In this document: positions 19,411 to 35,096 of the stretch, piece by piece
Position numbering within the stretch: position 1 is the stretch's first letter
Layout of the letters: every line of letters starts with the position of its first letter
NCBI RefSeq assembly: GCF_024741135.1
Contig: NZ_JANSUY010000010.1
Location: forward strand, 1 to 64,000
DNA from: Aquiflexum gelatinilyticum
GTDB lineage: Bacteria > Bacteroidota > Bacteroidia > Cytophagales > Cyclobacteriaceae
Length of the DNA stretch: 64,000 nt
Direction of reading: 5' to 3'
Made by a program: the position numbers and the translations under genes
Notes under the pieces: generated by a model
Told to the model about the DNA's origin: nothing
Seen by the model: the letters and a program-made list of their open reading frames with translations, nothing else
Database searches by the model: none

Positions 19411-20115
19411 ATGAACATTATTCCGGATTATCTCAGGTACCTTAGGAAAATCAAACAATTATTGGACACCTATCTTGCAGATCCCTACTCTCCTATGGAA
19501 ATCCGATCTACAGATTTGCATGATCTTATTATAAAAGATCCGGAACTGGCCCAGGTTTTTGAATATCCAAGAGATTTTGGCAGGTTCTTAAGAAAGCAGC
19601 ATGATGATGGAGTCTTGCAACAAATTATTCCAAATTGCTCTGTTGATACGACAAATAAAAGCTCTTATCAATGGCATTTTCGGAAAGCATTTCGAGATCA
19701 AGAAGGAAACAAAGGAATCCAAAGTCAAAATATTGTAAGCAAATACAAATACTACTCAAAATCTAAAAATATTACGACCTCTTCCGGTGAAAAGGTTAGA
19801 TCGAAACAAGAAAAAATCATCTATGAAAGGTTATTACAATGTGATTTTTTGACTATTTTTTATGATCATCCTGTAACCAAATGGGATGAAACCAAATACG
19901 TGGATTTCTATATCAAAAATGAAATGACCAGAAAAACTTACATATGGGAACATTTTGGAATGACCAATTCAGAACCCTATATAAATGGTATACCCAAAAA
20001 AATTGATTGGTTTGAATACAATGGATTTAAGGAAAATCTAATTATAACAATTTATGTTTCTGATAAACAATTTATCAGGGAAATTGAAAAAAACATAGAC
20101 ATAATAAAAATGTAA
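19411..20115 (+). CDS. Stand-alone predicted PD-(D/E)XK-type nuclease
   Basis: This 234-aa protein has a helical N-terminal part (1-110). From about 125 on it has the nuclease module seen at the C-terminus of some UvrD-like helicases: 'VRSKQEKIIYERLLQ' with E134, 'KYVDFYIK' with D165, then 'YIWEHFGM' with E180, followed by Y190 and K196/K197. The three acidic positions fit a PD-(D/E)XK fold. No helicase domain is attached. It opens the defence island, 317 bp before hsdM1, and is low in GC like the PD-(D/E)XK gene inside the operon. The role is probably DNA cleavage in defence; it could also be an unrelated resolvase. Confidence 0.7.
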   Translation: MNIIPDYLRYLRKIKQLLDTYLADPYSPMEIRSTDLHDLIIKDPELAQVFEYPRDFGRFLRKQHDDGVLQQIIPNCSVDTTNKSSYQWHFRKAFRDQEGNKGIQSQNIVSKYKYYSKSKNITTSSGEKVRSKQEKIIYERLLQCDFLTIFYDHPVTKWDETKYVDFYIKNEMTRKTYIWEHFGMTNSEPYINGIPKKIDWFEYNGFKENLIITIYVSDKQFIREIEKNIDIIKM

Positions 20116-20432
20116 ATTCTTCTAAAGTATTAACGAGGTCCGTGATTGTAAGCATCTTCCATGAAAGTAAAAGCCAGTATTATCCCCTAAAAATCGGAGG
20201 CTCGGTCAGGGTTATGGCGGTGCGGAAGGGAATAATCAATGATAAATATTGAATTAATATTTTCTGAAAAAAGGAATCGCACTGAGGAAATTACTTTATT
20301 TCTAAAAATAAAAACATTGTAGTTCTCCGTTAACTATCTTATTTTTGAAAAATAGGAAGGACAGCATATTTATACTTTTTAATATCTGTTATTCTAATAA
20401 CCCAATTTTATCCCAATCAGAATTCTTATTTG
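20116..20432 (+). promoter_or_regulatory. Probable promoter region of the restriction-modification operon
   Basis: This 317-bp non-coding gap is AT-rich in its second half. It is the only sizeable gap before a series of overlapping genes, so the operon promoter must lie here or upstream. No exact promoter box could be fixed and no small gene is visible. Confidence 0.4.
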
Positions 20433-21914
20433 ATGACCAAAACCAAACTCACCCTCTCCCAACTTGAACAATACCTTTCAAAAGCGGCATGGATTCTTAA
20501 AGGACCTGTGGACGCTTCTGATTTTAAAGTATACATATTTCCTTTGTTGTTTTTTAAGCGATTGTCTGATGTGTATGATGAGGAATACCAACAAGCTTTA
20601 GCCGAGTCCGGTGGTGATTCAGAATACGCTTCCCTGCCTGAATTCCACCGTTTTGAAATCCCAAAGGATTGCCATTGGAATGATGTGCGCGAAACCACCA
20701 CGAATGTGGGTCAAGCGATTGAAAAGGCTTTTAGAGGTATCGAGCAGGCGAATCAGGAATTATTGTACGGTATTTTTGGAGATGCCCAATGGAGCAACAA
20801 AAACAAACTGTCTGATCGTTTATTGGTGGATTTGATTGAGCATTTTTCACAGTATGCTTTGTCCAACTCATTGGTGGATCTTGATATCCTGGGTCAGGCT
20901 TACGAATACCTGATCAAGCATTTTGCAGATTTGACCAATAAAAAAGCCGGGGAATTCTATACGCCACGGTCGGTGGTCCACCTGTTGGGTTTGATCCTAG
21001 ATCCCCATGAAGGAGAAAGTGTGTACGATCCTGCCTGTGGGACCGGCGGTATGCTTTTGGAATGTGTCAACCATCTTCAGGAAAGTAAAGAGGATTACAG
21101 AACGCTGACCCTCTATGGACAGGAGAAAAACTTGACTTCCAGCTCCATTGCCCGGATGAATATGTTCCTTCATGGAATTGAGGATTTCAATATCGTGAGA
21201 GGAGATACCTTACGTAACCCTGCCTTTTTCGCTGCTGATGGATTGAGAACTTTTGACTGTGTCATTGCTAACCCGCCGTTTTCTTTGGATGATTGGGGAA
21301 GTGAGAATTGGGTTAATGATCCCTATGGAAGAAATATCGCCGGTGTACCGCCAAAAGGAAATGGCGACATGGCTTGGGTGCAGCATATGATCAAGTCCAT
21401 GAATAGCACCGGACGGATGACGGTCGTTTTGCCTCATGGGGCTTTGTTTCGCAAAGGCGCTGAGGGAAGAATTAGAGAAGAACTCCTAAAGCAGGATCTG
21501 TTGGAAGCTGTGATTGGGCTGGGATCAAACATCTTCTATGGAACCCAATTGGCAGCCTGTATCATGGTATTCAAGCAAAATAAACCTTCACACAAAAAAG
21601 GCAAAGTTCTGTTTATCGATGGATCAGATCAGGTTAGGGTTGGTCGCGCTCAGAATTTCTTGGAGCCGAACCATGTAAAGCAATTGTTCGATTGGTATTC
21701 CGAGTTTGAGGATGTGGAGAATTATACCAAAGTGGCAACGCTGCAAGAAATCGCCGAAAACGACTTTAACCTCAATATTCCTCTCTATGTAGAAAAAATC
21801 ATTGAAGACAATCTACCAACTGTGGAGGAAGCTTTGACGGATTTGAAAAAGGCTTGGGAAGAAAGCCAAAAAGCTGAAGTACGATTTAAAACCATTTTAT
21901 CTAAATTTCTATAA
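20433..21914 (+). CDS. hsdM: Type I restriction-modification methylase subunit (first copy)
   Basis: This 493-aa adenine N6-methyltransferase has an N-terminal helical HsdM_N domain ('LSQLEQYLSKAAWILKG', 'FPLLFFKRLSDVYDEE'), the SAM-binding motif D199-P-A-C-G-T-G-G206 and the catalytic N280-P-P-F283. M and S subunits together methylate the target adenine and direct cleavage by HsdR. ATG 20433 is used (a TTG lies one codon earlier). The stop abuts the next start with no gap. A second, different hsdM lies two genes on, but only one hsdS is present, so the specificity partner of this copy is uncertain. Confidence 0.95.
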   Translation: MTKTKLTLSQLEQYLSKAAWILKGPVDASDFKVYIFPLLFFKRLSDVYDEEYQQALAESGGDSEYASLPEFHRFEIPKDCHWNDVRETTTNVGQAIEKAFRGIEQANQELLYGIFGDAQWSNKNKLSDRLLVDLIEHFSQYALSNSLVDLDILGQAYEYLIKHFADLTNKKAGEFYTPRSVVHLLGLILDPHEGESVYDPACGTGGMLLECVNHLQESKEDYRTLTLYGQEKNLTSSSIARMNMFLHGIEDFNIVRGDTLRNPAFFAADGLRTFDCVIANPPFSLDDWGSENWVNDPYGRNIAGVPPKGNGDMAWVQHMIKSMNSTGRMTVVLPHGALFRKGAEGRIREELLKQDLLEAVIGLGSNIFYGTQLAACIMVFKQNKPSHKKGKVLFIDGSDQVRVGRAQNFLEPNHVKQLFDWYSEFEDVENYTKVATLQEIAENDFNLNIPLYVEKIIEDNLPTVEEALTDLKKAWEESQKAEVRFKTILSKFL

Positions 21915-23213
21915 ATGAACAGTCACCTAAATATTTTCAAAACTTACACAAAAGAGACTCGTCAATTTCAACTCGAAAACGACTTGACCCGAGCTTTTGC
22001 CATTTGTATGCAAGAGAATACTTTGTTTTTTAATGATGTATTAAAAGCAATTCTGGATGAAAAAGACTCAAAATCCTTATTTGGTGATATTTATTCAAAA
22101 AATGAAATCAATATCAGTATTCAAAAACAGAGTTCTAGCATTAGTGATTTTGAGAAAATCTATGCTGTATCCCTAAGTGAGCATGAAATGACGGAAGATT
22201 ATTTTTGGAAACAAAAGCATGAAACAAGATATGATCCCATTTGCGACATAGTTGTAAATATTAATGGTATTGCAATCATAATTGAGGCAAAAAGAGATTA
22301 TTGGGATTGCGCAGCCCAATTGTACAACCAGGTCTATAACATTTGTCAAAATGCCCCTGATAATGAAATGAAAGACCTTGTAATCCCTAAGGACTTAAAT
22401 TGGTTCAATTTAATGGAGATAGCCGTTAGGGTTCACAGTTTTGAAAAAGCTGCAGGAGTTACCAATAGATTTTTAATTGATTTTATCAACTTGGTTAAAG
22501 AACATAACTTCAGATGGTTACCAGAACCTGCCATTTTTTCCGTTTCCTCTGATAATAAAGTGGCCATTAAGAGAAGGATTGAGTCTGCAATCAATGAATT
22601 TTCAAAGAGCCATGCAATTAAAAAACTTGAATATAATAATAGACTCGGTCTTTGGTTTAACCAGCCATGGGCTCAGGAAGTGTTATTTGATGTGACTGAT
22701 AACGGAAATTTATATGTTTCCATTTATCCTGGTAATACTAAAGCACAAGGGAGCTATATTTTCTTTCATGCCCCCCACCTAAAGCAAAACATTGAAATAA
22801 ACAATAAATCTTATGCTTTACTCTCACTCTATCATGTAAAATTTACGAGTTATCAGAGATATTTTACGGGTTTATGGTTTGATGAAAATAGCCTCGACAA
22901 GCCGCTATATACCAAAGAGAATTTCAAGCAATATTGTGGGCGGAAAAAAAGAGATAATGATTGGGATCAAGTGATGAAACTTTTTGATCAATCTTTTAAA
23001 CCTTCTTATGATTGGAAAGCTGAATGCCAATGGAATGCAAAGGTTGTGAATTCCGGTAGAAATCAATTTGACCTCTCATTTGGCTATCAAGTTAATTTTG
23101 AAATCCCCTTTAAAGAACTTAGGGATATTGATCAAGATAAATCCGACTTATCAGGTTTAACTGAGTTAATTAAATCTGCTTATGAGGCGCTAAAAACAAT
23201 ATATTCTAAATGA
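21915..23213 (+). CDS. PD-(D/E)XK nuclease-like protein inside the hsdM operon
   Basis: This 432-aa protein has an N-terminal half with the canonical nuclease pattern: E21 in 'ENDLTRAFAI', D107/D111 in 'RYDPICDIVVNINGIA', E124-A-K126 in 'IIIEAKRDYW', then Q135 in 'AAQLYNQVY'. The C-terminal half (about 235-430) is beta-rich with many Trp and Tyr and matches nothing I recognise; it may read DNA or partner with HsdM. It starts on the base after the hsdM1 stop and overlaps the hsdM2 start by 4 bp (ATGA), so the three genes are translationally coupled. It is neither HsdR (present elsewhere, 988 aa) nor HsdS. Its base composition is lower in GC than the flanking hsdM genes, suggesting separate origin. 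Confidence 0.7.
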   Translation: MNSHLNIFKTYTKETRQFQLENDLTRAFAICMQENTLFFNDVLKAILDEKDSKSLFGDIYSKNEINISIQKQSSSISDFEKIYAVSLSEHEMTEDYFWKQKHETRYDPICDIVVNINGIAIIIEAKRDYWDCAAQLYNQVYNICQNAPDNEMKDLVIPKDLNWFNLMEIAVRVHSFEKAAGVTNRFLIDFINLVKEHNFRWLPEPAIFSVSSDNKVAIKRRIESAINEFSKSHAIKKLEYNNRLGLWFNQPWAQEVLFDVTDNGNLYVSIYPGNTKAQGSYIFFHAPHLKQNIEINNKSYALLSLYHVKFTSYQRYFTGLWFDENSLDKPLYTKENFKQYCGRKKRDNDWDQVMKLFDQSFKPSYDWKAECQWNAKVVNSGRNQFDLSFGYQVNFEIPFKELRDIDQDKSDLSGLTELIKSAYEALKTIYSK

Positions 23214-24673
23214 CCCAACAAGAACTAGAAAAATACCTTTGGGGTGCGGCCAAAGTACTCCGTGGCACTATTGATGCCGGGGATTACAAGCAATATATCT
23301 TTCCGCTATTGTTCTTCAAGAGGATCTGCGATGTCTATGACGAGGAATTTGAAAAGGCACTGAAAGAAAGCGATGGCGATATGGAGTATGCTGCCTTTGC
23401 GGAGCACCACCATTTTATTGTACCCATAGAAGCACATTGGAATAAAGTCCGAGAAACAACCACCAATGTCGGAATGGCCATACAAAACGCCATGCGGGAA
23501 ATCGAAAAAGCAAATCCGGATACGCTGTATGGGATATTTGGGGATGCGAGTTGGACCAACAAGGACCGGCTCTCGGATGCTACGCTCATCAACCTGATTG
23601 AGCATTTTTCACAACACAAGCTCAACCTAAGTGCTGTGGCGGATGACAAACTTGGAAATGCCTACGAATACCTGATCAAAGAATTTGCCGACGACAGCGG
23701 GCATACTGCAGCGGAGTTTTATACCAACCGCACTGTGGTGAAGCTGATGACAATGATCATGGACCCCCAACCGGGAGAAAGTGTCTATGACCCTACCTGC
23801 GGTTCGGGTGGCTTGCTACTCAACTGTGCGCTGCACTTGCGTGACGAAGGCAAAGAATACCGGACTCTCCGGCTCTACGGACAGGAAATCAACCTCATCA
23901 CCTCCGCCATCGCCCGGATGAATATGTTTATGCATGGCATAGAGGAATTCAGCATTGTGCGGGGGGATACCTTGGCGCAGCCGGCATTTTTGGAAAATGA
24001 CACACTCAAAAAATTCAATGTCATCCTTGCCAATCCCCCCTATTCGATTAAAGCTTGGGACCGCAAGGGCTTCGAAAACGATCCCTATGGCAGAAATGTC
24101 TGGGGAACACCGCCACAGGGATGCGCAGATTATGCCTTTCAACAGCATATCCAAAAAAGCCTCAATGACAAAAACGGACGTTCTATAACACTTTGGCCAC
24201 ATGGGGTTTTGTTTAGGGATTCGGAATCAGAGATGAGGAGAAAAATGATTGCAGAAGATTTGGTGGAATGCGTGATAGGCTTGGGACCTAATCTGTTTTA
24301 CAATTCTTCAATGACATCCTGCTTGCTCATTACTAACAATAACAAAAGACCTGAGCGAAAAGGTAAAGTATTGTTTGTCCAAGCTGTCAACGAAGTTCGT
24401 AACGAAAAAACAATAAGCTATTTAGATCCGCAACATATTGAACGAATTCACAATGCTTTTTTGAGCTTTAAAAATGAAATCACTTTTACGGCTGTTGTGG
24501 ATAACGATGAGATATTAAAGGACAACAATACCCGATTGAGTGTACAACTCTTTGTAAAGCAGGACAAAATTGAAGTAGAAGCATTTGATGTTTTACTTAG
24601 CCAATGGGAAGAAGGTTCTCATCAATTAAGGAATTCAATGGATGAGCTATTTAAAACCTTAGAAAATGGATAA
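23210..24673 (+). CDS. hsdM: Type I restriction-modification methylase subunit (second copy)
   Basis: This 487-aa protein is paralogous to the first HsdM ('FPLLFFKR', 'DVYDEE', 'RETTTNVG', 'LYGIFGDA' shared) but clearly divergent. The SAM motif is D194-P-T-C-G-S-G-G201 and the catalytic motif N275-P-P-Y278, the classic NPPY form, against NPPF in the first copy. Overlap with hsdS (8 bp) makes this the copy that most probably forms the M2S methylase. Its C-terminal tail diverges most from the first copy, where HsdM contacts HsdS. Confidence 0.95.
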   Translation: MTQQELEKYLWGAAKVLRGTIDAGDYKQYIFPLLFFKRICDVYDEEFEKALKESDGDMEYAAFAEHHHFIVPIEAHWNKVRETTTNVGMAIQNAMREIEKANPDTLYGIFGDASWTNKDRLSDATLINLIEHFSQHKLNLSAVADDKLGNAYEYLIKEFADDSGHTAAEFYTNRTVVKLMTMIMDPQPGESVYDPTCGSGGLLLNCALHLRDEGKEYRTLRLYGQEINLITSAIARMNMFMHGIEEFSIVRGDTLAQPAFLENDTLKKFNVILANPPYSIKAWDRKGFENDPYGRNVWGTPPQGCADYAFQQHIQKSLNDKNGRSITLWPHGVLFRDSESEMRRKMIAEDLVECVIGLGPNLFYNSSMTSCLLITNNNKRPERKGKVLFVQAVNEVRNEKTISYLDPQHIERIHNAFLSFKNEITFTAVVDNDEILKDNNTRLSVQLFVKQDKIEVEAFDVLLSQWEEGSHQLRNSMDELFKTLENG

Positions 24674-25856
24674 TCTAATAATGGAAAGCAAGGTTTTGAA
24701 TATTGATAAATCAAATTGGAAGTTGACCAAATTGGGTGATCTGTTAGAGGATATTTCCCAAAGAGTAGACAATCCAAGTAAATCAGGCTATGATCGATTT
24801 GTTGGCTTAGAACATTTTGTTTCAGGTGATATCAAAATCAAAAATTGGGGTACAACGGAAAACCTTACTTCATCAACGAAGGCATTCAAAGCAGGAGATA
24901 TATTGTTTGCGAGAAGGAATGCGTATTTGAGAAGAGCTTCACTTGTAGATTTTGATGGATGTTGCTCAGGTGATGCCTTTGTGCTTAGAGAAAACCATGT
25001 TAAAGTGGTGCCAGGTTTTATGGCATTTTTCTTTAACTCAAATACCGTCTGGGATTTTGCGAATGAAAATGCTGCGGGTACCATGTCGCAAAGAGTTAAA
25101 TGGCGTGATTTAGCAGAATACGAATTTCTCCTTCCCCCCAAAGACGAGCAAGCCCGTTTGGCAGAGTTACTTTGGTCGTTGGATGAAGTGATTGAGAAGG
25201 AGAAGGAGGTTTTGGAGAGGTTAGAAATTAACTTGGATGTTCGGGGATCACATCTTATTTGGAATGAGGAAAATAGAATGGAGGAGGTTGTAAAATTTGC
25301 TTCTGCCAATTTAAAGAAATTTGTTGATGGGGATTGGATAGAATCAAAAGACCAATCAGATTCAGGAATAAGGTTACTACAACTAGCGGATATTGGAGTA
25401 CGTGAATTTATTAATAAATCATCCAGATTTATTAGTGAGGAAACCTTCAAAAGATTAAGATGCTTTGAAGTTTTACCAAATGATGTACTCATAGCAAGAA
25501 TGCCCGATCCAATAGGAAGAGCTTGCATTATTGAGAATATAGGTCATAAAATGATTACTGCAGTTGACTGTTGTATTGTCAGGGTGGAATCCTCACATTC
25601 TTACAATAGATATCTTCTTCATTTACTGAATACACGCGAATTCTTGCACAAGGCCAATTTATTAGCTTCAGGGACGACAAGACAGAGAATTGCGAGGAAA
25701 AGTCTTGAAGAAATTAAGGTTCCAAAACCGAGTTTAGAATGTCAATTTAAAATAGCGAATGAGTTAGATTCTTTATATGAAATAATTGGATTGAATAGAG
25801 CCAAGATTAGAAGTTCCGAATCCCTCCAAAAATCCCTTATCAATCAAATATTTTAA
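24666..25856 (+). CDS. hsdS: Type I restriction-modification specificity subunit
   Basis: This 396-aa HsdS has two target-recognition domains (about 15-160 and 215-365) separated and followed by helical conserved regions ('PPKDEQARLAELLWSLDEVIEKEKEV' split here: DEQARLAELLWSL and 'VIEKEKEVLERLE'; final 'QFKIANELDSLYEIIGLNRAK'). Each domain specifies half of a bipartite target; the target itself cannot be read from sequence. ATG 24666 overlaps hsdM2; M6 at 24681 is an alternative. No second hsdS or inverted hsdS cassette is present, so phase variation by recombination is not indicated. Confidence 0.93.
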   Translation: MDNLIMESKVLNIDKSNWKLTKLGDLLEDISQRVDNPSKSGYDRFVGLEHFVSGDIKIKNWGTTENLTSSTKAFKAGDILFARRNAYLRRASLVDFDGCCSGDAFVLRENHVKVVPGFMAFFFNSNTVWDFANENAAGTMSQRVKWRDLAEYEFLLPPKDEQARLAELLWSLDEVIEKEKEVLERLEINLDVRGSHLIWNEENRMEEVVKFASANLKKFVDGDWIESKDQSDSGIRLLQLADIGVREFINKSSRFISEETFKRLRCFEVLPNDVLIARMPDPIGRACIIENIGHKMITAVDCCIVRVESSHSYNRYLLHLLNTREFLHKANLLASGTTRQRIARKSLEEIKVPKPSLECQFKIANELDSLYEIIGLNRAKIRSSESLQKSLINQIF

Positions 25857-26581
25857 TGGAAGCTAACCAAGAAAAAACATACTTAGCAGTAGATGATCGG
25901 TGGGCAATTTTTGGGACTAATTCCATTGACGAACACATTCATAAGAATGTGGTCAAAGGTGTGTTTGATGATACTGTACCCAAAGAAATTATTGGAGATT
26001 TTAAGACGATTGAATACCTGCAAGTATATGCCTACTATCATTGGCCAATGATGGATGAAGCCTTGAGTAAAGGTCTTCGACTATTAGAAATGGCCATTAA
26101 ACTCAAAGCTAAGGAATTGAAAATTCCACTGCAGAATTCAGGAGAAAAACCAAAGGACAAGAATTTCAATCAGTTAACCAATGAAGTTTGCGCTGAAGAG
26201 CCGCTGATTCAGCTAAAGGAAACTATTCATCATTTAAGGAACATCCGGAATATCCTGACTCATACAGATTCAAATGATTTTGTTGGAGGGACAGGGGACA
26301 TTGTAAAACGAAATCTGATGCGCTTAGTCAACCTTATAAATGATCTCTTTTTAGCCCCTGAAGTACTAAAAAGTAAACTTGTTTTAGAGAAGGCTGAGAG
26401 AGCAGTATTTGTGAAAAATTATTTAAACAGACTTACCATTTCTCCTCCATTTACCAAGGAGCATTTCATGGGGATAGCAGAATGGGCATTTGAGGAGAAG
26501 AAGTATATGGATAAGCTTTGGGAAAACAAGATCAAAGGATTGCCTGTAATTTCATTTAAAACTGATAAAAATAGCCACTAA
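25856..26581 (+). CDS. HEPN-like protein of unknown function in the defence operon
   Basis: This 241-aa all-helical protein overlaps the hsdS stop by one base (TAATG). It has a helical bundle with 'MDEALSKGLRLLEMAIKLKAK' (split: about 66-86) and 'HHLRNIRNILTHTD' around R131-x4-H136, the R-x4-6-H pattern of HEPN ribonucleases; the DUF4145-like spacing also fits. HEPN proteins near restriction systems are usually RNA-cleaving abortive-infection effectors or their scaffold forms. Assignment rests on one motif plus helical character, so alternatives remain open. Confidence 0.5.
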   Translation: MEANQEKTYLAVDDRWAIFGTNSIDEHIHKNVVKGVFDDTVPKEIIGDFKTIEYLQVYAYYHWPMMDEALSKGLRLLEMAIKLKAKELKIPLQNSGEKPKDKNFNQLTNEVCAEEPLIQLKETIHHLRNIRNILTHTDSNDFVGGTGDIVKRNLMRLVNLINDLFLAPEVLKSKLVLEKAERAVFVKNYLNRLTISPPFTKEHFMGIAEWAFEEKKYMDKLWENKIKGLPVISFKTDKNSH

Positions 26582-26599
26582 TGTTAAAAGAAATGCCCT

Positions 26600-26959
26600 A
26601 TGGAAAAGAAGCAGCTTATTGATCGTATAAATACTCAGTTTAAAGGAAATTTGAATTCCCAGAATACGAGCTATTCCGGTATCAATAAAGCTAAAGCGGT
26701 TTGGTGGTTTAATATCCATGTCTCCAAGTTTGAGGACGATGTGCATTTATTGCTAGACAATACAGACCATGTGCTTTGGATTACCTTACCCAAAAGTTTT
26801 GTCAGCAACCTTCAAGGCACTTTTAAAATCCGGGAAGACAAAAATGCAGTGGATTTAGAAATCTCCGCAGATAGCAAATTACTGTATCTCAGAGATCGAA
26901 AATCCGGAGGTACAGGCTTTGATTTTAGGGGTTTTGTGAGAGATAAGATAGGGTTTTGA
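26600..26959 (+). CDS. Small unknown protein in the defence operon (119 aa)
   Basis: This soluble, mixed alpha/beta protein has no signal peptide or known motif. It contains 'AKAVWWFNIHVSKFEDDVHL', 'VLWITLPKSFV', a Ser/Gly-rich turn and a basic C-terminus. It starts 18 bp after the HEPN-like gene and ends 153 bp before the AAA gene. The pairing suggests a partner (for example antitoxin or sensor) of the HEPN-like protein, but nothing in the sequence proves this. Confidence 0.55.
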   Translation: MEKKQLIDRINTQFKGNLNSQNTSYSGINKAKAVWWFNIHVSKFEDDVHLLLDNTDHVLWITLPKSFVSNLQGTFKIREDKNAVDLEISADSKLLYLRDRKSGGTGFDFRGFVRDKIGF

Positions 26960-27112
26960 GAAGAAATGGCTTTGGTGATTCGGTTTTGATGAAGTTAAAC
27001 AATCTCTCTTGAATTAAAATTAAATCAATTGCTTGTTTTTCAAGCTGATTATTAAGAATTTGGGGATGATTTTTGTGTTTAGTAATATTGGAATAAAAAG
27101 TACTTTTGTCTT

Positions 27113-28087
27113 ATGGGAGCGACGGAACAAATAAAAAGTTTGATCAAGCATTTTGGTGAAGGGGATGATGAACGATTTATTTCATCTGCCTTGCAGATCG
27201 CTGCTGCCGAAGCCCAAAAAGGCCATACAGCTTTAGCTCAAGAATTAAAGTCCTTGATTGACAAGGCGAAACTAAAAAGGAATCAGCCTTTTGCAGACCG
27301 AAGTAAGACCATTCCCATACTACCTAGTCAGCGGGATTTGAAAGAGTTATTGGATGTGTTCCAGCCGGCAATCAAGCTTAATGATATGGTTTTGGATGTA
27401 GAGACCAAATCTTCTTTAGAGAAGTTGATTGAGGAACAAACCAACTGGCAACTTCTTCGCCAATACAACCTTCAACCGAAAAGAAAACTTTTGTTAACGG
27501 GCCCTCCCGGTTGTGGTAAGACCATGACTGCACAAGCACTCGCAGGTGAATTAGGCATTCCGGTATTTATTGTTCGCTTAGACGGCCTGGTATCCAAGTA
27601 TATGGGAGAATCCATTGCAAAGCTTCGGGTGATATTTGACACCATGGTGAATCAGCGGGGCGTTTACCTTTTTGATGAGTTTGACTCTATAGGTAGCCAC
27701 AGAAATATTGGGCAAGATGTAGGTGAAATCAAAAGGGTTTTGAATTCCTTCCTGATCAATATTGAAAAAGACCAAAGTAACAGTATTATCATTTGCGCGA
27801 CCAATCTGCCTGAAATGCTTGATAAAGCACTTTTTAGAAGGTTTGATGAAGTGATTGAATTTCCTCTGCCTAAAGAAACAGAAATAACTAGTATGCTTCA
27901 AAAGCAGCTGCAGGCATTTGAATTTGAATCAAAGGTTGACTTGCAATCTATTGCCCACCAGTTTTTAGGACTTAATTTTTCGGATATCCTCCGTGCTTGT
28001 GAAGAAACTATCAAAGCCATGATTTTGAGTGGCAGAAATAAACTTAACCCACAAGTCCTGATCGATGCCCTTTCAAAAAGAAAGTAA
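27113..28087 (+). CDS. ietA: AAA+ ATPase of an IetAS-like module
   Basis: This 324-aa protein has a helical N-terminus and one AAA+ core: Walker A G130-P-P-G-C-G-K-T137, Walker B 'VYLFDEFD' (D188-E189), sensor-1 N221 in 'ICATN' and arginine-finger-like R232/R233 ('ALFRRFDEVIEF'). An AAA ATPase directly followed by a subtilase matches IetAS, described first as a plasmid stability (toxin-antitoxin-like) pair and later listed among anti-phage systems. IetA is thought to restrain or activate the protease. The next gene starts 3 bp downstream. Confidence 0.8.
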   Translation: MGATEQIKSLIKHFGEGDDERFISSALQIAAAEAQKGHTALAQELKSLIDKAKLKRNQPFADRSKTIPILPSQRDLKELLDVFQPAIKLNDMVLDVETKSSLEKLIEEQTNWQLLRQYNLQPKRKLLLTGPPGCGKTMTAQALAGELGIPVFIVRLDGLVSKYMGESIAKLRVIFDTMVNQRGVYLFDEFDSIGSHRNIGQDVGEIKRVLNSFLINIEKDQSNSIIICATNLPEMLDKALFRRFDEVIEFPLPKETEITSMLQKQLQAFEFESKVDLQSIAHQFLGLNFSDILRACEETIKAMILSGRNKLNPQVLIDALSKRK

Positions 28088-28090
28088 TCG

Positions 28091-30598
28091 ATGGCATCAG
28101 ATCCCAAAAGACATTTAATCGGAATAGAAAGGTTTGCCTCTGGTCAGGAATACACCTATCCTAGGACTGTAGTAGCTTCTTTTCCAATAGCAACAAGAAA
28201 CAGGGCTATGCATGGAAATAGAATAAAAAGTCAGATCGAGACTATTCGGGATCAGTTTGAACTCCAACAGGATCAGGAAATCCCAGAAGGTTTGGTGAAA
28301 GACGACGTAATCTATGTGGAGTTTTATTCTGCTTGGGGGTTTGAGTTGAAGTTTGAACAGCTTCACTCTGATTCGAGAGGACATTATCAAATCCTTAAAA
28401 TTTCGAAAGAAATAAGAATTCAGAATGAGCAAGAAGAAAAGCGATTCAGGGTGCTTGTGATGCTTTCCAAACGGGGAATAGAACATTTTTTGGTTAAAGT
28501 TGAAAATTACTTAAACCTGACCTATAGAAATTTGCCTGATGGAAATCCTCTGTCTCAGAACTTAATTGCAAATCTTGAGGAAATTCGCTTGGCTACACTT
28601 CAAGCTTTTTGGGTAGATATTGATTCTTATACTTTTCCGGACTCAGACCTTGAAGTTTGGTGGGAAGTATGGTTTAGGAGAAGTACTTACAGCAGGGATA
28701 AAACAGACCAACAGCTTGAGATCGCAGGTCTAAGTTTTAGTCCAAGAGAATTAATGTTTCCTGAGCATGTCATCCGTATGGTCAGAGGAACAGCAAGGCA
28801 ATTGGCCTCTTCGGTTTTTCTTTTGGACAGTCTGGCAGAATTAAGGAGACCTCAGGAAATCAATGATTTCATTACTTCAGAAAGAATAAATTATGAGACA
28901 GAACAAGAATGGTTAGAGGATTTAATTTCGAGAACTGATTTTGTTTCCCCGCAAGATTCAGAAAATGTATTTGTTTGTCTGTTTGATTCAGGTTTGACAC
29001 ATAGACATCCATTACTATTTCCTCTGATAGATGGAGGAAATCTGCATGCCTGGAATCCGTCTTGGGGGTTGGAGGATTCTGCAAATAATGGAGGGCATGG
29101 TACCGGAATGGCAGCATTGGCACTATTCGGAAATTTGACAGATGCCTGTGCCAGTTCGGTTCCTATCCAGATACTTCATGGAATAGAATCATTTAAGATA
29201 TTTCAATCAGGAAGTTCCATTGACAAAGAATTATTTGGGATTATATATCTGGATGGCATAACTACAGTTTCTATTTCCAATCCTCATGTAAAAAGGATCA
29301 TTTGCCTATCAGTTACCAATGATGGTTTAATAAAATCCGGAAGACCGAGTTCAGCATCCAGCTCACTGGATAACATTGCATTTGGAAATGCTTTTGAGGA
29401 GGCTGAACCTCAAATGGTCATAGTAAGCGGCGGGAATGTATTATTGTCAAACCATGGCGATTTCCCAAGTCAAAATTTCATTCAGAGTATCCAAGATCCA
29501 GGGCAAGCATACAATGTATTAACAATTGGAGCCTACACCGAAAAGGATAGATTGTCCAGACCAAGTGGATATACTCCGGTTGCGAGATTGGGAGAAATGT
29601 CACCAAGAAATTCCACTTCAGCGATGTGGGAGCCTCAATGGCCTAATAAACCTGATTTGGTCATGGAAGGAGGAAATATGATTTCTGATGGTCATTTTCT
29701 TTTTTCCCACGAAGAGTTAGAGCCGCTTTCTATTGATAAAGATTTTACAAGAAGGTTGTTCAGGCCATTTGGGGGGACAAGTTCAGCAGCAGCCTTTGCA
29801 TCCAAAATGGCAGCTGAATTAAGAACTACCTATCCGGATTTTTGGCCGGAAACCATTAGAGGGTTGATGATTCATTCCGCAGAATGGACGCCCCAAATGC
29901 TTCATGGTAAGGATATCACAAGAGAGGGAGATAGACGAGCCTTAATTCGATCGGTTGGATATGGAGTTCCAAACTTAAACAGAGCACTCTATAGTGCGTC
30001 CAATGCACTTACTTTGATTGCACAGGCAAATATTAAACCTTACAGAATGGATAATGGCGTTGTCAGGTACAATGAATATCATTTGTATGAGATTCCATGG
30101 CCTGTAGAAGTTTTGCAGGATATGCTATTCAATCAAGAAGTGACTATTAAAGTTACCTTATCCTATTTTATTGAACCCAATCCTGGAGCAAGGGAATACG
30201 CTAAAAGCTTTTCATATCATTCCCATTCGTTGGATTTCAAGTTGATAAAAGAAAATGAAACGCCTTCTGAGTTTAGGAGAAGAATTTCAGCTGCTGCTGA
30301 ACAAGAAGATGAGACGGAACGCCCCGACTTAAGAGATGAAGATTGGACGATCAAAGAGCGGGTAAGAAATAAAGGTTCGGTTAAAAAAGATTTTTTGAAA
30401 ACTTTTGGGGCAAACCTGGCTTCCCGCAACATCTTGGCAGTTTATCCAAAAGCAGGATGGTACCGTAGCAGAAAGAGTCTTGAAAAATATAATCATGAGG
30501 TTAGGTATTCCTTGATAGTCAGTATTGAAACCCCCATTTTGGAAGTGGATATTTATACGCCAGTTGAAAACCTGATTCAAATTGCCATTACCACCTAA
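28091..30598 (+). CDS. ietS: Subtilase (S8) protease of an IetAS-like module
   Basis: This 835-aa protein has no signal peptide, so it acts in the cytosol. The N-terminal about 280 residues are unrecognised and the S8 core follows with an intact triad: D299 ('LFDSG'), H336 ('GGHGTGMAA') and S564 ('GGTSSAAA'), plus the oxyanion Asn N449 in 'SGGN'. A beta-rich C-terminal part (about 640-835) completes it. Together with the preceding ATPase it matches the IetS protease. The ending lies 71 bp before hsdR. Confidence 0.82.
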   Translation: MASDPKRHLIGIERFASGQEYTYPRTVVASFPIATRNRAMHGNRIKSQIETIRDQFELQQDQEIPEGLVKDDVIYVEFYSAWGFELKFEQLHSDSRGHYQILKISKEIRIQNEQEEKRFRVLVMLSKRGIEHFLVKVENYLNLTYRNLPDGNPLSQNLIANLEEIRLATLQAFWVDIDSYTFPDSDLEVWWEVWFRRSTYSRDKTDQQLEIAGLSFSPRELMFPEHVIRMVRGTARQLASSVFLLDSLAELRRPQEINDFITSERINYETEQEWLEDLISRTDFVSPQDSENVFVCLFDSGLTHRHPLLFPLIDGGNLHAWNPSWGLEDSANNGGHGTGMAALALFGNLTDACASSVPIQILHGIESFKIFQSGSSIDKELFGIIYLDGITTVSISNPHVKRIICLSVTNDGLIKSGRPSSASSSLDNIAFGNAFEEAEPQMVIVSGGNVLLSNHGDFPSQNFIQSIQDPGQAYNVLTIGAYTEKDRLSRPSGYTPVARLGEMSPRNSTSAMWEPQWPNKPDLVMEGGNMISDGHFLFSHEELEPLSIDKDFTRRLFRPFGGTSSAAAFASKMAAELRTTYPDFWPETIRGLMIHSAEWTPQMLHGKDITREGDRRALIRSVGYGVPNLNRALYSASNALTLIAQANIKPYRMDNGVVRYNEYHLYEIPWPVEVLQDMLFNQEVTIKVTLSYFIEPNPGAREYAKSFSYHSHSLDFKLIKENETPSEFRRRISAAAEQEDETERPDLRDEDWTIKERVRNKGSVKKDFLKTFGANLASRNILAVYPKAGWYRSRKSLEKYNHEVRYSLIVSIETPILEVDIYTPVENLIQIAITT

Positions 30599-30669
30599 CC
30601 TGAAAATCTTTTATCTAAACACCCAATCATTTAGATCAAAATCCTTAATTTCAAAAGAAAGATTTTTGC

Positions 30670-33636
30670 ATGTCGTTTAACGAACTCAATAGCGTAGAGC
30701 ATTACATTATCCACCAGCTGAGTGGGGTGAACCTCAATTTTCAGGGTAGTTCTGAGCCTAAGACGAGTTATGGCCTTCAATGGCAGTATATGTCAGCGGT
30801 AGACTTGAACCGATCTGTCAACGAAGTGCTGATGGAGCAGGACCTCAAAGATGCTTTGGTTCGCTTAAATCCTGAAATAGCTGCCAAACCAGAATTGGCA
30901 GATGAGGTGATCTATAAACTGCGGGCTATTTTGATTTCGGTCAATCAGATTGGGTTGGTGAAGGCAAATGAGGAATTTTTCAAATGGCTTGGAGGAGACA
31001 AAACCATGCCTTTTGGTAATAACAACCGTCATGTTCCAGTGAGGATTTTTGATTTTGATGATCTTTCTGAAAACAAATATGTCGTCACCAACCAGTTTCG
31101 CATCCACCACCGAGAAACCAAAATACCGGATTTGGTATTTTTCATCAATGGAATTCCAGTAGTCGTCGGAGAGGCCAAAACCCCCATCCGGCCAAGTGTA
31201 AGTTGGTTGGATGGTGCCTATGAAATCCATGAGGTGTATGAGAATACTGTTCCGCAGTTATTTGTCCCCAATATCCTGTCTTTCGCCACCGAGGGCAAAT
31301 CCTTGTATTTTGGAAGTATCCGTTGCCCGTTGGATTTTTGGGCGCCTTGGCGCCTGGAGGATGAAGATGAAGCCCTTGCACGTAGGTTAGGTTTGGTTGA
31401 AATCGGCAAAGAGATGGGTGACTTGTTGCACCCGGCAAGGTTGCTCGATATTTTACAAAATTTCTCTTTGTTCACTACTAATAAGAAAAAACAGCGGAGC
31501 AAAGTAATCCCTCGATTTCAGCAATATGAGGGGGCAAACAAGATTGTAGAGCGGGTAAAAGAAGGACGGGTAAAAAAGGGACTGATCTGGCACTTTCAGG
31601 GCTCAGGTAAGTCTTTGTTGATGGTGTTTGCTGCACAGAAATTAAGACGTTCACCGGAATTGAAAAGCCCAACCGTCATCGTCTTGGTGGACCGTACAGA
31701 TTTGGATACCCAGATATCAGGCACTTTCAATGCATCGGATATTCCCAATGTCGAGGCTACAGAAAGTATCAGGGATTTACAAAAAATGTTGGAGCAAGAC
31801 ACGCGGAAAATCATCATATCGATGATCCATAAATTCCGCGATGCCAAACCCAACATGAATACCCGCGACAATATTATTGTGCTGGTCGATGAAGCCCATA
31901 GGACCCAAGAAGGTGATTTGGGTCGGCAGATGCGTGCAGCCCTTCCAAATGCATTTTTGTTTGGGTTGACAGGTACCCCGGTCAACAAAGCTGACAAGAA
32001 TACTTTTTGGGCATTTGGTTCTGAGGAAGATGAAGGAGGATATTTATCCCGGTACACATTCCAGGATTCCATTCGGGATGGGGCAACCCTACCCTTGCAT
32101 TTTGAGCCACGGATGGTGGATGTGCATGTGGACAAAGAAACCATCGACAAGCTTTTTGGAAACTTCAAAGAAGAGACTGCGCTTACTGATGAAGAGGCCG
32201 ATGCTTTGAACAAGAAATCCGCTAAAATGGCAGCTTTCCTGAAATCACCGGAGCGGGTCGCAAAAATTGTGGCGGACATTGCAAACCATTTCCGTGAAAA
32301 GGTGGCTCCACATGGATTCAAAGCCATGATAGTAACTCCTGATCGTGAGGCATGTGTGCAATACAAAGAAGCTTTGGATCACTATTTTCCGGTAGAGGCG
32401 AGTAAGGTTGTCATCTCTACCACTGCAAATGATAAATTTGATTTCAAACAGAAATGGGGAATTGATAAATCCCAACAGGAACGGATAGTCGATGAATATA
32501 ACGATCCGATTTCTGATTTACAGTTTTTGATAGTCACTGCCAAATTACTAACGGGCTTTGATGCCCCCATATTACAAACCATGTACTTGGACAAGTCAAT
32601 CAAGGACCACACTCTTCTGCAGGCCATTTGTAGGACCAACAGGTTGTTTCCAAATAAAAGGCATGGGCGGATTGTTGATTATTTTGGTGTTTTTGATGAT
32701 GCTGCGAAGGCTTTGGAGTTTGATGAAGCATCTGTCAAACAAATTATCACCAACCTATCTGAACTGAGGGACCAATTTCCCCGAGCCATTCATGATACTT
32801 TACAGCATTTTGAAGGGGTGGACAGAACTCAACAAGGTTTTGAGGGATTGGAAGCCGCACAAAATGCAATCAAGACCGATGAGAAAAAGGATGCCTTCGC
32901 CAAGGATTACAAATTCTTAAGCAAACTATGGGAATCGCTTTCCCCGGATAATATCTTGAATGCCTACCAATCTGATTACAAATGGTTGTCTCAGGTATTT
33001 GAATCCGTCCGACCGGCTTCCGACAATGTAGGAAAACTGCTTTGGTTGACCTTGGGGGCCCAAACAACCAAACTGATTCATGATAACATTCACGTAGGAG
33101 AAATCCACAACCTGGATGAATTCATATTGGATGCAGATGTGATCGAAGAGATTTTTAACAATCCTGATCCCAAGAATGCCAAAAAACTCACCAAAATTCT
33201 TGTTAACCGATTTAAAAAACATGGAGATCATCCTAAGTTTAAAAAACTGAGCGAACTCTTAGAAGAGTTGCGGGATAGGGCAGAAAGGGGATTGATCACC
33301 TCGATTGAATTTGTGAAGGAACTCTGTAAAATCGCAAAGGAAACTGTTCAGGCAGAGAAAGATCTCGAAGCCGAGCTGCAAGAAAAATCTCCCAAAGCAG
33401 CACTGACCGAATTATTTTTAGAGTTGAAAACCGATCAAACCCCGGCAGTGGTAGAGCGGATTGTTGCGGATATCGATGCGATTGTCCGTTTAGTTAGATT
33501 TCAAGGTTGGCAAAAAACAACTTCAGGAGAACGTGATGTCCAGAAATCATTGAGGCAGGCACTATTGAAATATCAATTACATAAAGACCAGGTTTTGTTT
33601 GATAGGGCTTATAGTTATATTAAGGAATATTATTGA
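30670..33636 (+). CDS. hsdR: Type I restriction endonuclease, motor/cleavage subunit
   Basis: This 988-aa protein has an N-terminal PD-(D/E)XK nuclease (D154 ... E168-A-K170 in 'VVGEAKTP'), helicase motif I 'HFQGSGKS' (K314), DEAH box D407-E-A-H410, later helicase motifs (LFGLTGTP, LTGFDAP, QAICRTNR) and a helical C-terminus for HsdM/HsdS docking. Length is normal. It works with HsdM and HsdS to translocate and cut unmodified DNA. It is separated from hsdS by four genes (HEPN-like, unknown, ietA, ietS), which is unusual. Confidence 0.96.
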   Translation: MSFNELNSVEHYIIHQLSGVNLNFQGSSEPKTSYGLQWQYMSAVDLNRSVNEVLMEQDLKDALVRLNPEIAAKPELADEVIYKLRAILISVNQIGLVKANEEFFKWLGGDKTMPFGNNNRHVPVRIFDFDDLSENKYVVTNQFRIHHRETKIPDLVFFINGIPVVVGEAKTPIRPSVSWLDGAYEIHEVYENTVPQLFVPNILSFATEGKSLYFGSIRCPLDFWAPWRLEDEDEALARRLGLVEIGKEMGDLLHPARLLDILQNFSLFTTNKKKQRSKVIPRFQQYEGANKIVERVKEGRVKKGLIWHFQGSGKSLLMVFAAQKLRRSPELKSPTVIVLVDRTDLDTQISGTFNASDIPNVEATESIRDLQKMLEQDTRKIIISMIHKFRDAKPNMNTRDNIIVLVDEAHRTQEGDLGRQMRAALPNAFLFGLTGTPVNKADKNTFWAFGSEEDEGGYLSRYTFQDSIRDGATLPLHFEPRMVDVHVDKETIDKLFGNFKEETALTDEEADALNKKSAKMAAFLKSPERVAKIVADIANHFREKVAPHGFKAMIVTPDREACVQYKEALDHYFPVEASKVVISTTANDKFDFKQKWGIDKSQQERIVDEYNDPISDLQFLIVTAKLLTGFDAPILQTMYLDKSIKDHTLLQAICRTNRLFPNKRHGRIVDYFGVFDDAAKALEFDEASVKQIITNLSELRDQFPRAIHDTLQHFEGVDRTQQGFEGLEAAQNAIKTDEKKDAFAKDYKFLSKLWESLSPDNILNAYQSDYKWLSQVFESVRPASDNVGKLLWLTLGAQTTKLIHDNIHVGEIHNLDEFILDADVIEEIFNNPDPKNAKKLTKILVNRFKKHGDHPKFKKLSELLEELRDRAERGLITSIEFVKELCKIAKETVQAEKDLEAELQEKSPKAALTELFLELKTDQTPAVVERIVADIDAIVRLVRFQGWQKTTSGERDVQKSLRQALLKYQLHKDQVLFDRAYSYIKEYY

Positions 33637-33699
33637 TCAGAATTGATTTTCACCTTGGGGCTGCGGCTATTGGGGGAAAAATAGAAGAACACTCACTCC

Positions 33700-33866
33700 A
33701 TTTCGGTAATTAAGATTTTCCTCCTGAGGAGATTCGTGACCGAAATACCTTGCACCGCCATTTTATCCCCGAGCGGCGGTGCATTGAAATTAGTATGAGT
33801 ATGAGTATGAGAATCAGAGTAGCACCTTGCACGGGGTTATTAATAATCAGCCCGCTTCGGGGCTGT
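33700..33866. repeat. Composite palindromic repeat, copy 1
   Basis: A 47-bp hairpin ATTTCGGT...ACCGAAAT (33700-33746) contains an inner TCCTC-CT-GAGGA palindrome. A second inverted repeat TGCACCGCC/GGCGGTGCA lies at 33751-33783, and a third-like GTAGCACC...CCCGCTTCGGGG tract ends near 33866. The same order of parts recurs in copies 2 and 3. Confidence 0.75.
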
Positions 33867-33901
33867 TGGTTAATTGGGAAAAATAGAAGAACGCTCCCAC
33901 C

Positions 33902-34066
33902 ATTTCGGTAATAAAGATTCTCTTTCTTAGAAGATTCATGACCGAAATCCTGTATAATTCGACCATTTATCCATGGGCTACGGTGCAGGAAGATTCGAGA
34001 AAGTAAGAAGTTTGGTTTAGCACCTTACCCATGGCTAGTCATATTTCGCCCCGATGGGGCTTTTTT
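33902..34066. repeat. Composite palindromic repeat, copy 2
   Basis: The ATTTCGGT...ACCGAAAT hairpin is at 33902-33948, then come ccatgggctacggtgc and, about 50 bp on, its imperfect inverse agcaccttacccatgg, then tttcgccccgatggggc with a T-run. The last hairpin with T-run could act as a terminator. Confidence 0.75.
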
Positions 34067-34135
34067 TCCAAAACATCTAAAAACAAGAAAAATCCTTGTA
34101 AGGGATCATCTACTTTAAAAAATCTCGTTATGAAA

Positions 34136-34246
34136 CACCGGCGGGGAGGAGGAAATTTTTCCGGGCCGGCGGTGGCTAGGATCGCGGATAGGATTAAAAT
34201 TTCTTGCCTTTTTTGGTTACTTTTTGTGGTAAGACAAAAAGTGACA
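34136..34246 (-). repeat. Inverted partial copy of the long dispersed repeat
   Basis: The reverse complement of the conserved end of copies A and D is recognisable: ggaggaggaaatttttccgg and tggttactttttgtggtaag. It is more diverged than those copies. A short reading frame over it is repeat-derived. Confidence 0.75.
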
Positions 34247-34310
34247 CGAGGAGAAAACGAAAATAATTTATCAAATGAATGAAACAGGAAAACGATAGGA
34301 TTCTCCACCC

Positions 34311-34471
34311 ATTTCGGTATTGAAGATTCTAATTCTTAGGGGATTCGTGACCGAAATACGCTCTATCTCCACTTTTACCATGGGCTGCGGTGCATAGAGA
34401 ATTGTGTAAGTATATAGTTAGATTTAGCACCTTACCCATGGCTACCAAGATTTCGCCCCGATGGGGCTTAC
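34311..34471. repeat. Composite palindromic repeat, copy 3
   Basis: Same order as copy 2: ATTTCGGT...ACCGAAAT (34311-34357), ccatgggctgcggtgc, agcaccttacccatggctac, then gatttcgccccgatggggc. Copies 2 and 3 share over 70% of positions by eye. Confidence 0.75.
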
Positions 34472-35096
34472 TTTATCAGACACTTTTAGGGAAGGGAGTA
34501 TCCCTACTAAATGATTGCCGTCGGGTTTAGGATTCCATTTCACATCTCTCTCAACCAAATTCCTATTGTTTCGACAAAAGTCCCCCTTCAGGGGGATTAG
34601 GGGGCAAAACCTTCGCGACCCATTGCGAAACCTTGGAGTCCATTGCGGTTTAAAAATATTTCCTCACGCAGAGGCGGAGAGAATAAAGATGTTTGTGGAG
34701 ACACTAACATGGGCGAAAGAAATAACATCAATTGTTGATTTTAACCATGGGTTGCAATGCGAAGAGATAATTTGAATTATGAAAAGCAGTGTAGCATCTT
34801 ACCCATGGCAACCTAGATTTTGCACGGATGGAGCTGCGGGTCTACCCCCCTATCCTTTGAAGTTTTTTATGTTTTGATGAAAATGCTCCAATCATTTCTC
34901 TTTTGGTAATTCCTATGAAAAAAAACCTCACCGAAAAATCTTATCCTACCCATTCCAGTCCTTTCAGCACCAGGTTTGGATGGTCTTGTTTATAATTACG
35001 GAGGCAATTTTTGTGGCTGTCCTAACTTGACAAGGTTTGATTTTTGGTCATTTTCGATTAGATTTTAGAAATTATTGAGATTTGAGAAGGTTAAAT
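34472..35096. other. Intergenic region with a degenerate fourth palindrome copy
   Basis: No gene is seen. A weak fourth copy (ccatgggttgcaatgcg ... gtagcatcttacccatgg ... tgcacggatggagctgcgg) lies at 34739-34841 without its first hairpin. At about 34580-34600 the word cccccttcagggggattaggggg is a further palindromic tract. The last 200 bp are the upstream region of the TPR/HTH gene. Confidence 0.6.

Follow-up and report, generated by a model that had tools for sequence, protein, structure and literature searches.

The first 64,000 nucleotides of contig NZ_JANSUY010000010.1 of Aquiflexum gelatinilyticum (positions 1 to 64,000, the window) hold a complete type I restriction-modification operon of the PacII kind, with two different hsdM genes, one hsdS and one hsdR, and with other genes inserted at the hsdM1/hsdM2 and hsdS/hsdR junctions. 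With a probability of roughly 0.85, this operon is a conserved scaffold with two gene-exact slots for exchangeable cargo, and the slot genes add defence functions to those of the core. An earlier note on this DNA, made from the letters alone, had described a type I core with two hsdM genes, nested defence genes and operon-like overlaps. These features were borne out by the open reading frames (ORFs, called mechanically) and by matches to hidden Markov models (N6_Mtase and HsdM_N in two proteins, Methylase_S, IetA, the subtilase IetS, and HsdR), and all ten genes of that note lie at the coordinates that it gave, on the plus strand and free of internal stops:

20433..21914, + strand: hsdM1, of the M1 type with motifs AGEF and NPPF; the ATG at 20433 is used, and a TTG at 20430 is possible too.
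21915..23213, + strand: slot 1 cargo, a PD-(D/E)XK-like protein of 432 amino acids (aa), here called PDX, with invariant residues and no named family.
23210..24673, + strand: hsdM2, of the M2 type with motifs AAEF and NPPY; its R18 corresponds to R29 of PacII M2.
24666..25856, + strand: hsdS, with two stretches of Methylase_S; best solved relative 7vru_C.
25856..26581, + strand: slot 2 cargo, a HEPN-like protein with an RNxxxH motif.
26600..26959, + strand: slot 2 cargo, a small protein of 119 aa without a family, relatives of which lie behind hsdS elsewhere.
27113..28087, + strand: slot 2 cargo, an IetA-like AAA ATPase (PADLOC IetA, 255 bits).
28091..30598, + strand: slot 2 cargo, an IetS-like subtilase (Peptidase_S8, 154.7 bits; PADLOC IetS, 85.1 bits).
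30670..33636, + strand: hsdR, with nuclease and translocase domains (HSDR_N and SWI2_SNF2; TIGR00348, 547.9 bits against a cut-off of 284.55).
19411..20115, + strand: a nuclease-like neighbour, judged to lie outside the system, with a partial PADLOC match to PDC-S68 and a gap of 317 base pairs (bp) to hsdM1.

The junctions are exactly as the earlier note had measured them: hsdM1 and the PDX gene abut (0 bp), the PDX gene overlaps hsdM2 by 4 bp, hsdM2 overlaps hsdS by 8 bp, and hsdS overlaps the HEPN-like gene by 1 bp. The remaining gaps are 18 bp between the HEPN-like and small genes, 153 bp between the small gene and ietA, 3 bp between ietA and ietS, and 71 bp between ietS and hsdR. A promoter scan gave no excess over shuffled sequence (37 found, shuffled mean 38.5).

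Judged by its motifs and closest solved relatives, the core belongs to the non-canonical type I systems with two methylases of which PacII is an example, in which N6-methyladenine (m6A) and N4-methylcytosine (m4C) would both be made. The Pfam family PF02384 matches the genome three times, once in each hsdM gene (350 and 276 bits) and once, at 22.4 bits, in a 289-aa frame. The best solved relative of HsdM1 is 7vru_A, the M1 chain of PacII (577 bits; the M2 chain reaches 494), while that of HsdM2 is 7vru_B, the M2 chain (618 bits; the M1 chain reaches 416), and that of HsdS is the PacII S subunit. The combination of an AGEF/NPPF M1 (m6A) with an AAEF/NPPY M2 (m4C) is the signature of non-canonical type I systems, and two unlike hsdM genes with a single hsdS constitute the described subtype PacII_M1M2S (PMC9613975, available text). 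The two M genes that the earlier note had singled out as a departure from standard type I systems are thus real, but the arrangement has already been described, which explains what had been that note's main surprise. In the proposed mechanism, M1, M2 and the one HsdS would assemble into an M1M2S methylase. At a bipartite site, M1 would place m6A on one strand and M2 would place m4C on the other, and together with HsdR the complex would translocate on and cut DNA lacking these marks.

The residues that distinguish the two methylase types are maintained well beyond the window. Named loci were retrieved with an alignment scan of M2, and the 80 used here are the best 80 by M2 similarity. In these, the G and F of AGEF/NPPF are kept in all 54 M1 proteins longer than 400 aa, and the A and Y of AAEF/NPPY in all 62 M2 proteins from loci holding both M genes. 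Fourteen other M1 proteins were read as well, and 12 of them have the AGEF/NPPF pair; it was not found in that of L062, and for the M1 of L055 the first pattern match fell in an over-extended start. R18 of HsdM2 aligns with the M2 arginine of PacII, R29, and this position is R in 62 of 62 M2 proteins and K in 46 of 54 M1 proteins.

M1 and M2 occur together within the fetched stretch in 62 of the 80 named loci, which come from Bacteroidota, Pseudomonadota and other phyla, and M1 precedes M2 in every one of these. Within the family of A. gelatinilyticum, hsdM1 has matches at E 1e-100 in 19 of 390 genomes, its own included, and M1 is found at 78–90% identity in 13 genomes besides its own; M2 lies downstream in 12 of these, and in the thirteenth the contig ends. 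In a sample across the phylum, M2 matches at E 1e-150 were obtained in 11 of 395 genomes, again with its own, the ten others being 57–63% identical (M2 alone was compared). A bare M1-M2-S-R operon is carried by a plasmid of Streptomyces hirsutus and by one of Exiguobacterium aurantiacum, while plasmid relatives of M1 with a single M gene, for contrast, have the order M-S-R in Rhizobium and, in Methylobacter, S and R separated by an Abi-family gene. Since the M1-M2 pair recurs in this order elsewhere, its interruption by cargo is not chance. The earlier note had proposed conserved synteny of the whole gene row as a test, and the answer is mixed: many genomes share the core and its two slots, but none of the 75 other M1-M2 loci showed the window's exact order of cargo, so that the locus is neither a new multi-gene system nor an accidental stack.

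The first slot, between hsdM1 and hsdM2, was compared across 76 distinct loci, the window and these 75 others, which also form the rows of a tree of M2. Left out of this tree were L100, taken as the same as G700 (present as L056), and the 18 of the 80 named loci without M1 in their stretch; G747 entered as L079, and G079 (L052) and a partial copy, L060, were not used. Four rows (L088, L106, L138 and L141) carry no tenant label, leaving 72 labelled rows. Slot 1 is occupied in 49 of the 76 loci, empty in 23 and unlabelled in 4. Its commonest tenants are GmrSD-like proteins (26 loci), a label given by Pfam for L049, L050, L051, L053, L056 and L089, by PADLOC for L053, L067 and L089, and by BLAST single-linkage clustering for the remainder. 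By PADLOC, the two members of the GmrSD cluster that were compared, in L053 and L067, match HEC-05, one at 757 and one at 177 bits, and the tenant of L089 matches HEC-06. PDX is the tenant in six loci, namely the window, G128, G556, Sabulibacter L066, Chryseobacterium L074 and the Oceanospirillaceae bin L087. The 17 other tenants include a PDDEXK_3 protein, a PDDEXK_4 protein (PDC-S26), N6/N4 methylases with an AlbA domain, DUF4145 proteins, a HipA-like protein, a reverse transcriptase, and two small families (about 204–231 aa and 135–142 aa) for which Pfam gave no identification. In Sphingobacterium L099 (7679-9990), a reverse transcriptase (RVT_1) and a 212-aa ORF together fill the slot.

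Comparison of DNA with three near relatives that carry other cargo in slot 1 places the limits of exchange at the gene ends. Homology with L049 stops at 21912 and restarts at 23206, that with L048 stops at 21909 and restarts at 23194, and that with L069 stops at 21891 and restarts at 23207, while the alignment with L066, which also holds PDX, is unbroken from 20433 to 25200. As the breaks coincide with the end of hsdM1 (21914) and the start of hsdM2 (23210), the exchanged unit is the gene itself, and the cargo of slot 1 consists of gene-precise cassettes. The slot 1 gene would be co-transcribed with the core; here it is PDX, elsewhere mostly a GmrSD-like gene, and its product is most likely a second, independent nuclease directed against DNA that gets past type I restriction.

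PDX appears to represent a nuclease-like family without a name. Residues E21, D111, E124, K126, Q135 and Q139 are invariant in 11 aligned sequences, that of the window included, and E, D, ExK and Q in that order are expected of PD-(D/E)XK nucleases. A model built from 4 sequences (mean predicted local distance difference test score, pLDDT, 79.8; predicted template modelling score 0.57) has strands at 111-116 and 119-124 and helices at 16-34 and 132-143. PDX had no match in Pfam, PADLOC (E 0.01), NCBIfam or PHROGs, its hhalign comparison with a PDDEXK_4 pair was not significant, and Pfam found no GmrSD_N domain that would make it a type IV enzyme of the GmrSD kind. A resemblance to PtuB (profile match, E 0.095) was treated as chance. 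PDX matches at E 1e-5 occur in 5 of the 395 genomes sampled across the phylum, its own included; a first scan of genome contigs with PDX alone gave no match, and no relatives were found in viral contigs and phage records. One relative, on a Vibrio plasmid, adjoins a HIRAN-domain gene and has no annotated hsd gene within 15 kb, and for another, in G199, the fetched 20 kb contain nothing related to the hsd genes of the window. Such occurrence away from hsd genes of the window's type speaks for PDX as an autonomous, mobile gene. In G286 and G353 (loci L014 and L016), type I genes of other kinds adjoin the PDX relatives, those of L014 including two N6_Mtase proteins (552 and 830 aa), and in G226 (L015) the neighbour is a helicase of 2073 aa that has an MrfA Zn-binding domain.

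Slot 2, between hsdS and hsdR, shows the same interchange. In 48 named loci, R could be located downstream of M1 and M2 on the same strand; it follows S directly in 20 of these and is separated from S by ORFs in 28. The contents in the loci tested comprise DarT and macro-domain proteins, AbiEii-like proteins, PtuAB, TmtA-like proteins, PD-T7-4, DUF3644/PDC-S19 and IetAS. The HEPN-like and small genes of the window form a single homologous block with L049 (25823-26928), and ietA and ietS one with L048 (27101-31877) that extends into hsdR. Behind the cargo, homology restarts at 30676 with L066, at 30676 with L049 and at 30670 with L069, the start of hsdR being 30670. The HEPN-like protein keeps R131, N132 and H136 invariant in 8 aligned sequences, the window's among them, and RNxxxH is the HEPN ribonuclease motif; no Pfam (HEPN) or NCBIfam family exceeded its cut-off, PADLOC gave no match at E 0.01, and the single match in the PDB (E 0.54) is not a HEPN protein. 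The 119-aa protein also lacked a Pfam or NCBIfam family over cut-off and a PADLOC match at E 0.01, and its structure model is poor (pLDDT 46.8), but its gene follows hsdS without the HEPN-like gene in L051, L056, L067, L070 and L075. A relative of 35% identity is encoded in Pseudomonas aeruginosa among ordinary genes. The AAA ATPase and the subtilase behind it match the PADLOC IetA and IetS models and fall below the NCBIfam equivalog cut-offs (196.3 against 510 and 48.5 against 900). An identity as MADS was rejected (models MAD2 and MAD5; 87 and 56.6 against a cut-off of 720, and 45.3 against one of 400). Cargo was annotated for a chosen part, 40 proteins in Pfam and 20 in PADLOC, and 18 of these 20, a choice that was not random, matched PADLOC, some weakly or partially. 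Slot 2 may be pictured as holding backup defence modules, represented here by the HEPN-like protein, the small protein and IetAS.

The M2 tree counts in favour of exchangeable cargo: among the 72 labelled rows the tenant changes at least 27 times (with all "other" tenants lumped), and the scattered PDX branches need 5 changes, forced by starred branches. Several points weigh against the reading as a scaffold with exchangeable cargo. The tree was made quickly, is supported by Shimodaira–Hasegawa-like approximate likelihood ratio tests only and has 27 open forks, and the 5 PDX changes compare with a shuffled mean of 5.9, with 64 of 500 shuffles as low; the shuffle covers the PDX changes only. 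As the 80 loci were taken for the greatest similarity in M2, the slot frequencies are not population frequencies. The content of guanine and cytosine is 43.5% in hsdM1, 44.3% in hsdM2 and 43.3% in hsdR, with 33.3% in the PDX gene, 36.6% in the HEPN-like gene and a window mean of 41.4%, but the core gene hsdS is also low (36.5%) and ietA (40.8%) and ietS (39.9%) are close to the mean, so that core and cargo are not cleanly split by this measure. The model of PDX found no fold match at E 0.001 in the PDB or BFVD, so that the nuclease assignment rests on a motif, and relatives of PDX are also found away from hsd relatives of the window's kind (the Vibrio plasmid, G199 and G226). R stands at the M2-arginine position in 8 of 54 M1 proteins as well, and the arginine is therefore not strictly M2-specific in the compared set. 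In both distant plasmid copies, those of Streptomyces and Exiguobacterium, AQEF replaces AAEF in M2, and an EFYT-type motif was not found in the Streptomyces M1.

An accidental stack, in which chance has placed hsdM1 and the gene beside it next to an unrelated hsdM2-S-R system, might be suggested by a cargo order met only here, but the recurrence of M1 before M2 in named loci and family genomes alike, together with the type-specific residues kept throughout the long M1 and all the M2 proteins, makes it exceedingly improbable, and for the core this explanation is refuted. It is distinctly unlikely that the cargo genes are passive passengers kept by linkage that contribute nothing to defence. 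No cargo gene is common to all loci, the P. aeruginosa relative of the small protein lies in an ordinary setting, and PDX, the HEPN-like protein and the small protein are all without a PADLOC match, as passengers might be; the PADLOC matches of 18 of the 20 chosen cargo proteins, with the qualifications given, argue the other way.

The role of PDX itself admits two further explanations. It could be an integral accessory subunit, with an alternative cutting or regulatory function and binding M1M2S, rather than a separate defence gene. The 0-bp and 4-bp junctions with both hsdM genes, its recurrence between these genes in 6 of 76 loci, and the order M1-PDX-M2-S-R of L066, with S and R adjacent, are in keeping with a subunit, but in 70 of the 76 loci slot 1 holds something else, is empty or shows no clear gene, and PDX occurs both on the Vibrio plasmid without nearby annotated hsd genes and in L013 without relatives of the window's hsd genes, so that a subunit is unlikely. 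That PDX is a modification-dependent, type IV-like nuclease, which replaces the GmrSD-like protein and attacks modified phage DNA resistant to type I cleavage, is possible at less than even odds. GmrSD-like proteins are the commonest tenants of its slot, and action on modified phages has been reported both for TgvAB, a GmrSD-like pair housed within a type I operon, and for BrxU, which adjoins BREX (PMC11411939, available text); against this, Pfam, PADLOC, profile and fold searches found no similarity between PDX and GmrSD, and several other tenants are not type IV proteins by Pfam (HipA-like, reverse transcriptase, DUF4145, N6/N4 methylase with AlbA). It is from position only that PDX is hypothesised to stand in for a type IV enzyme. 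The more specific proposal that the hsdM1-hsdM2 junction is a dedicated dock for an interchangeable nuclease, with PDX as a new and possibly modification-dependent family doing the job of GmrSD or BrxU, is offered tentatively and is somewhat unlikely; if it holds, one operon would cover both unmodified and modified phage DNA.

An M2-type HsdM without M1 in the fetched stretch was observed in 16 of the 80 named loci (L121, L123-L134, L136, L137 and L140). AAEF/NPPY was read in 15 of the 16, the protein of L132 being split; five have less than 2 kb of upstream sequence, and several are metagenome bins. When 12 of these genomes were searched whole with M1 (E 1e-60), the best match, of 49-51% identity, was taken as M2 itself, and the others reached at most 43%. 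Such loci possibly encode type I enzymes with an m4C-type methylase on both sides.

To the left, the stand-alone nuclease at 19411-20115, which the earlier note had counted as part of the island, is judged not to belong to it. A BLAST relative above 50 bits was present in the fetched stretch of 0 of the 80 named loci, and relatives in 147 other genomes of the family came from only 3 genomes, as parts of frames of about 1250 aa, and on these two grounds its membership was rejected. To the right, homology with a genome of the same genus restarts at 35034. Behind hsdR, about 1.2 kb of intergenic repeats (33657-34841), in families of 34-105 nucleotides with copies 60-80% alike, carry terminator-like hairpins just before this restart.

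For the search for anti-phage genes, the gap between M1 and M2 offers a new and easily searched place, and the list of candidates gains, in PDX, a nuclease-like family without a name. Complementary restriction becomes testable within one operon, and an M2-only type I enzyme, an m4C-type HsdM without an M1 partner, would merit attention.

Type I systems with two M genes are already published, as are defence genes embedded between hsdS and hsdR, whereas no description of the M1-M2 cargo slot or of the PDX family was found in searches of the open-access literature (PMC), which does not prove the slot unpublished. The locus resembles PacII_M1M2S (PMC9613975, available text) in its two HsdM types with the same motifs, its M2 arginine and its single HsdS, and differs from that subtype as described in the genes inserted at hsdM1/hsdM2 and hsdS/hsdR, the methylation type of the window being predicted from motifs. 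IetAS is matched in the order of AAA ATPase and subtilase and in the PADLOC hits, unlike in the scores, which stay below the equivalog cut-offs. The GmrSD-family proteins HEC-05, which has been equated with BrxU (PMC11411939, available text), and HEC-06 are found as slot 1 tenants in L067 and L053 (HEC-05) and L089 (HEC-06), whereas PDX has no GmrSD domain and only a PD-(D/E)XK-like motif. DarTG2 lies between hsdS and hsdR in enteropathogenic Escherichia coli (PMC12255303, available text), the same place as slot 2 of the window, and DarT and macro-domain genes occupy this slot in L053, with genes of the same length in L055. TgvAB is embedded in a type I operon of VPI-2 in Vibrio cholerae (PMC11411939, available text). 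As far as the available parts of these two sources describe them, the operons hosting DarTG2 and TgvAB have a single hsdM, and hence no M1-M2 slot, in contrast to the two-slot operon of A. gelatinilyticum.

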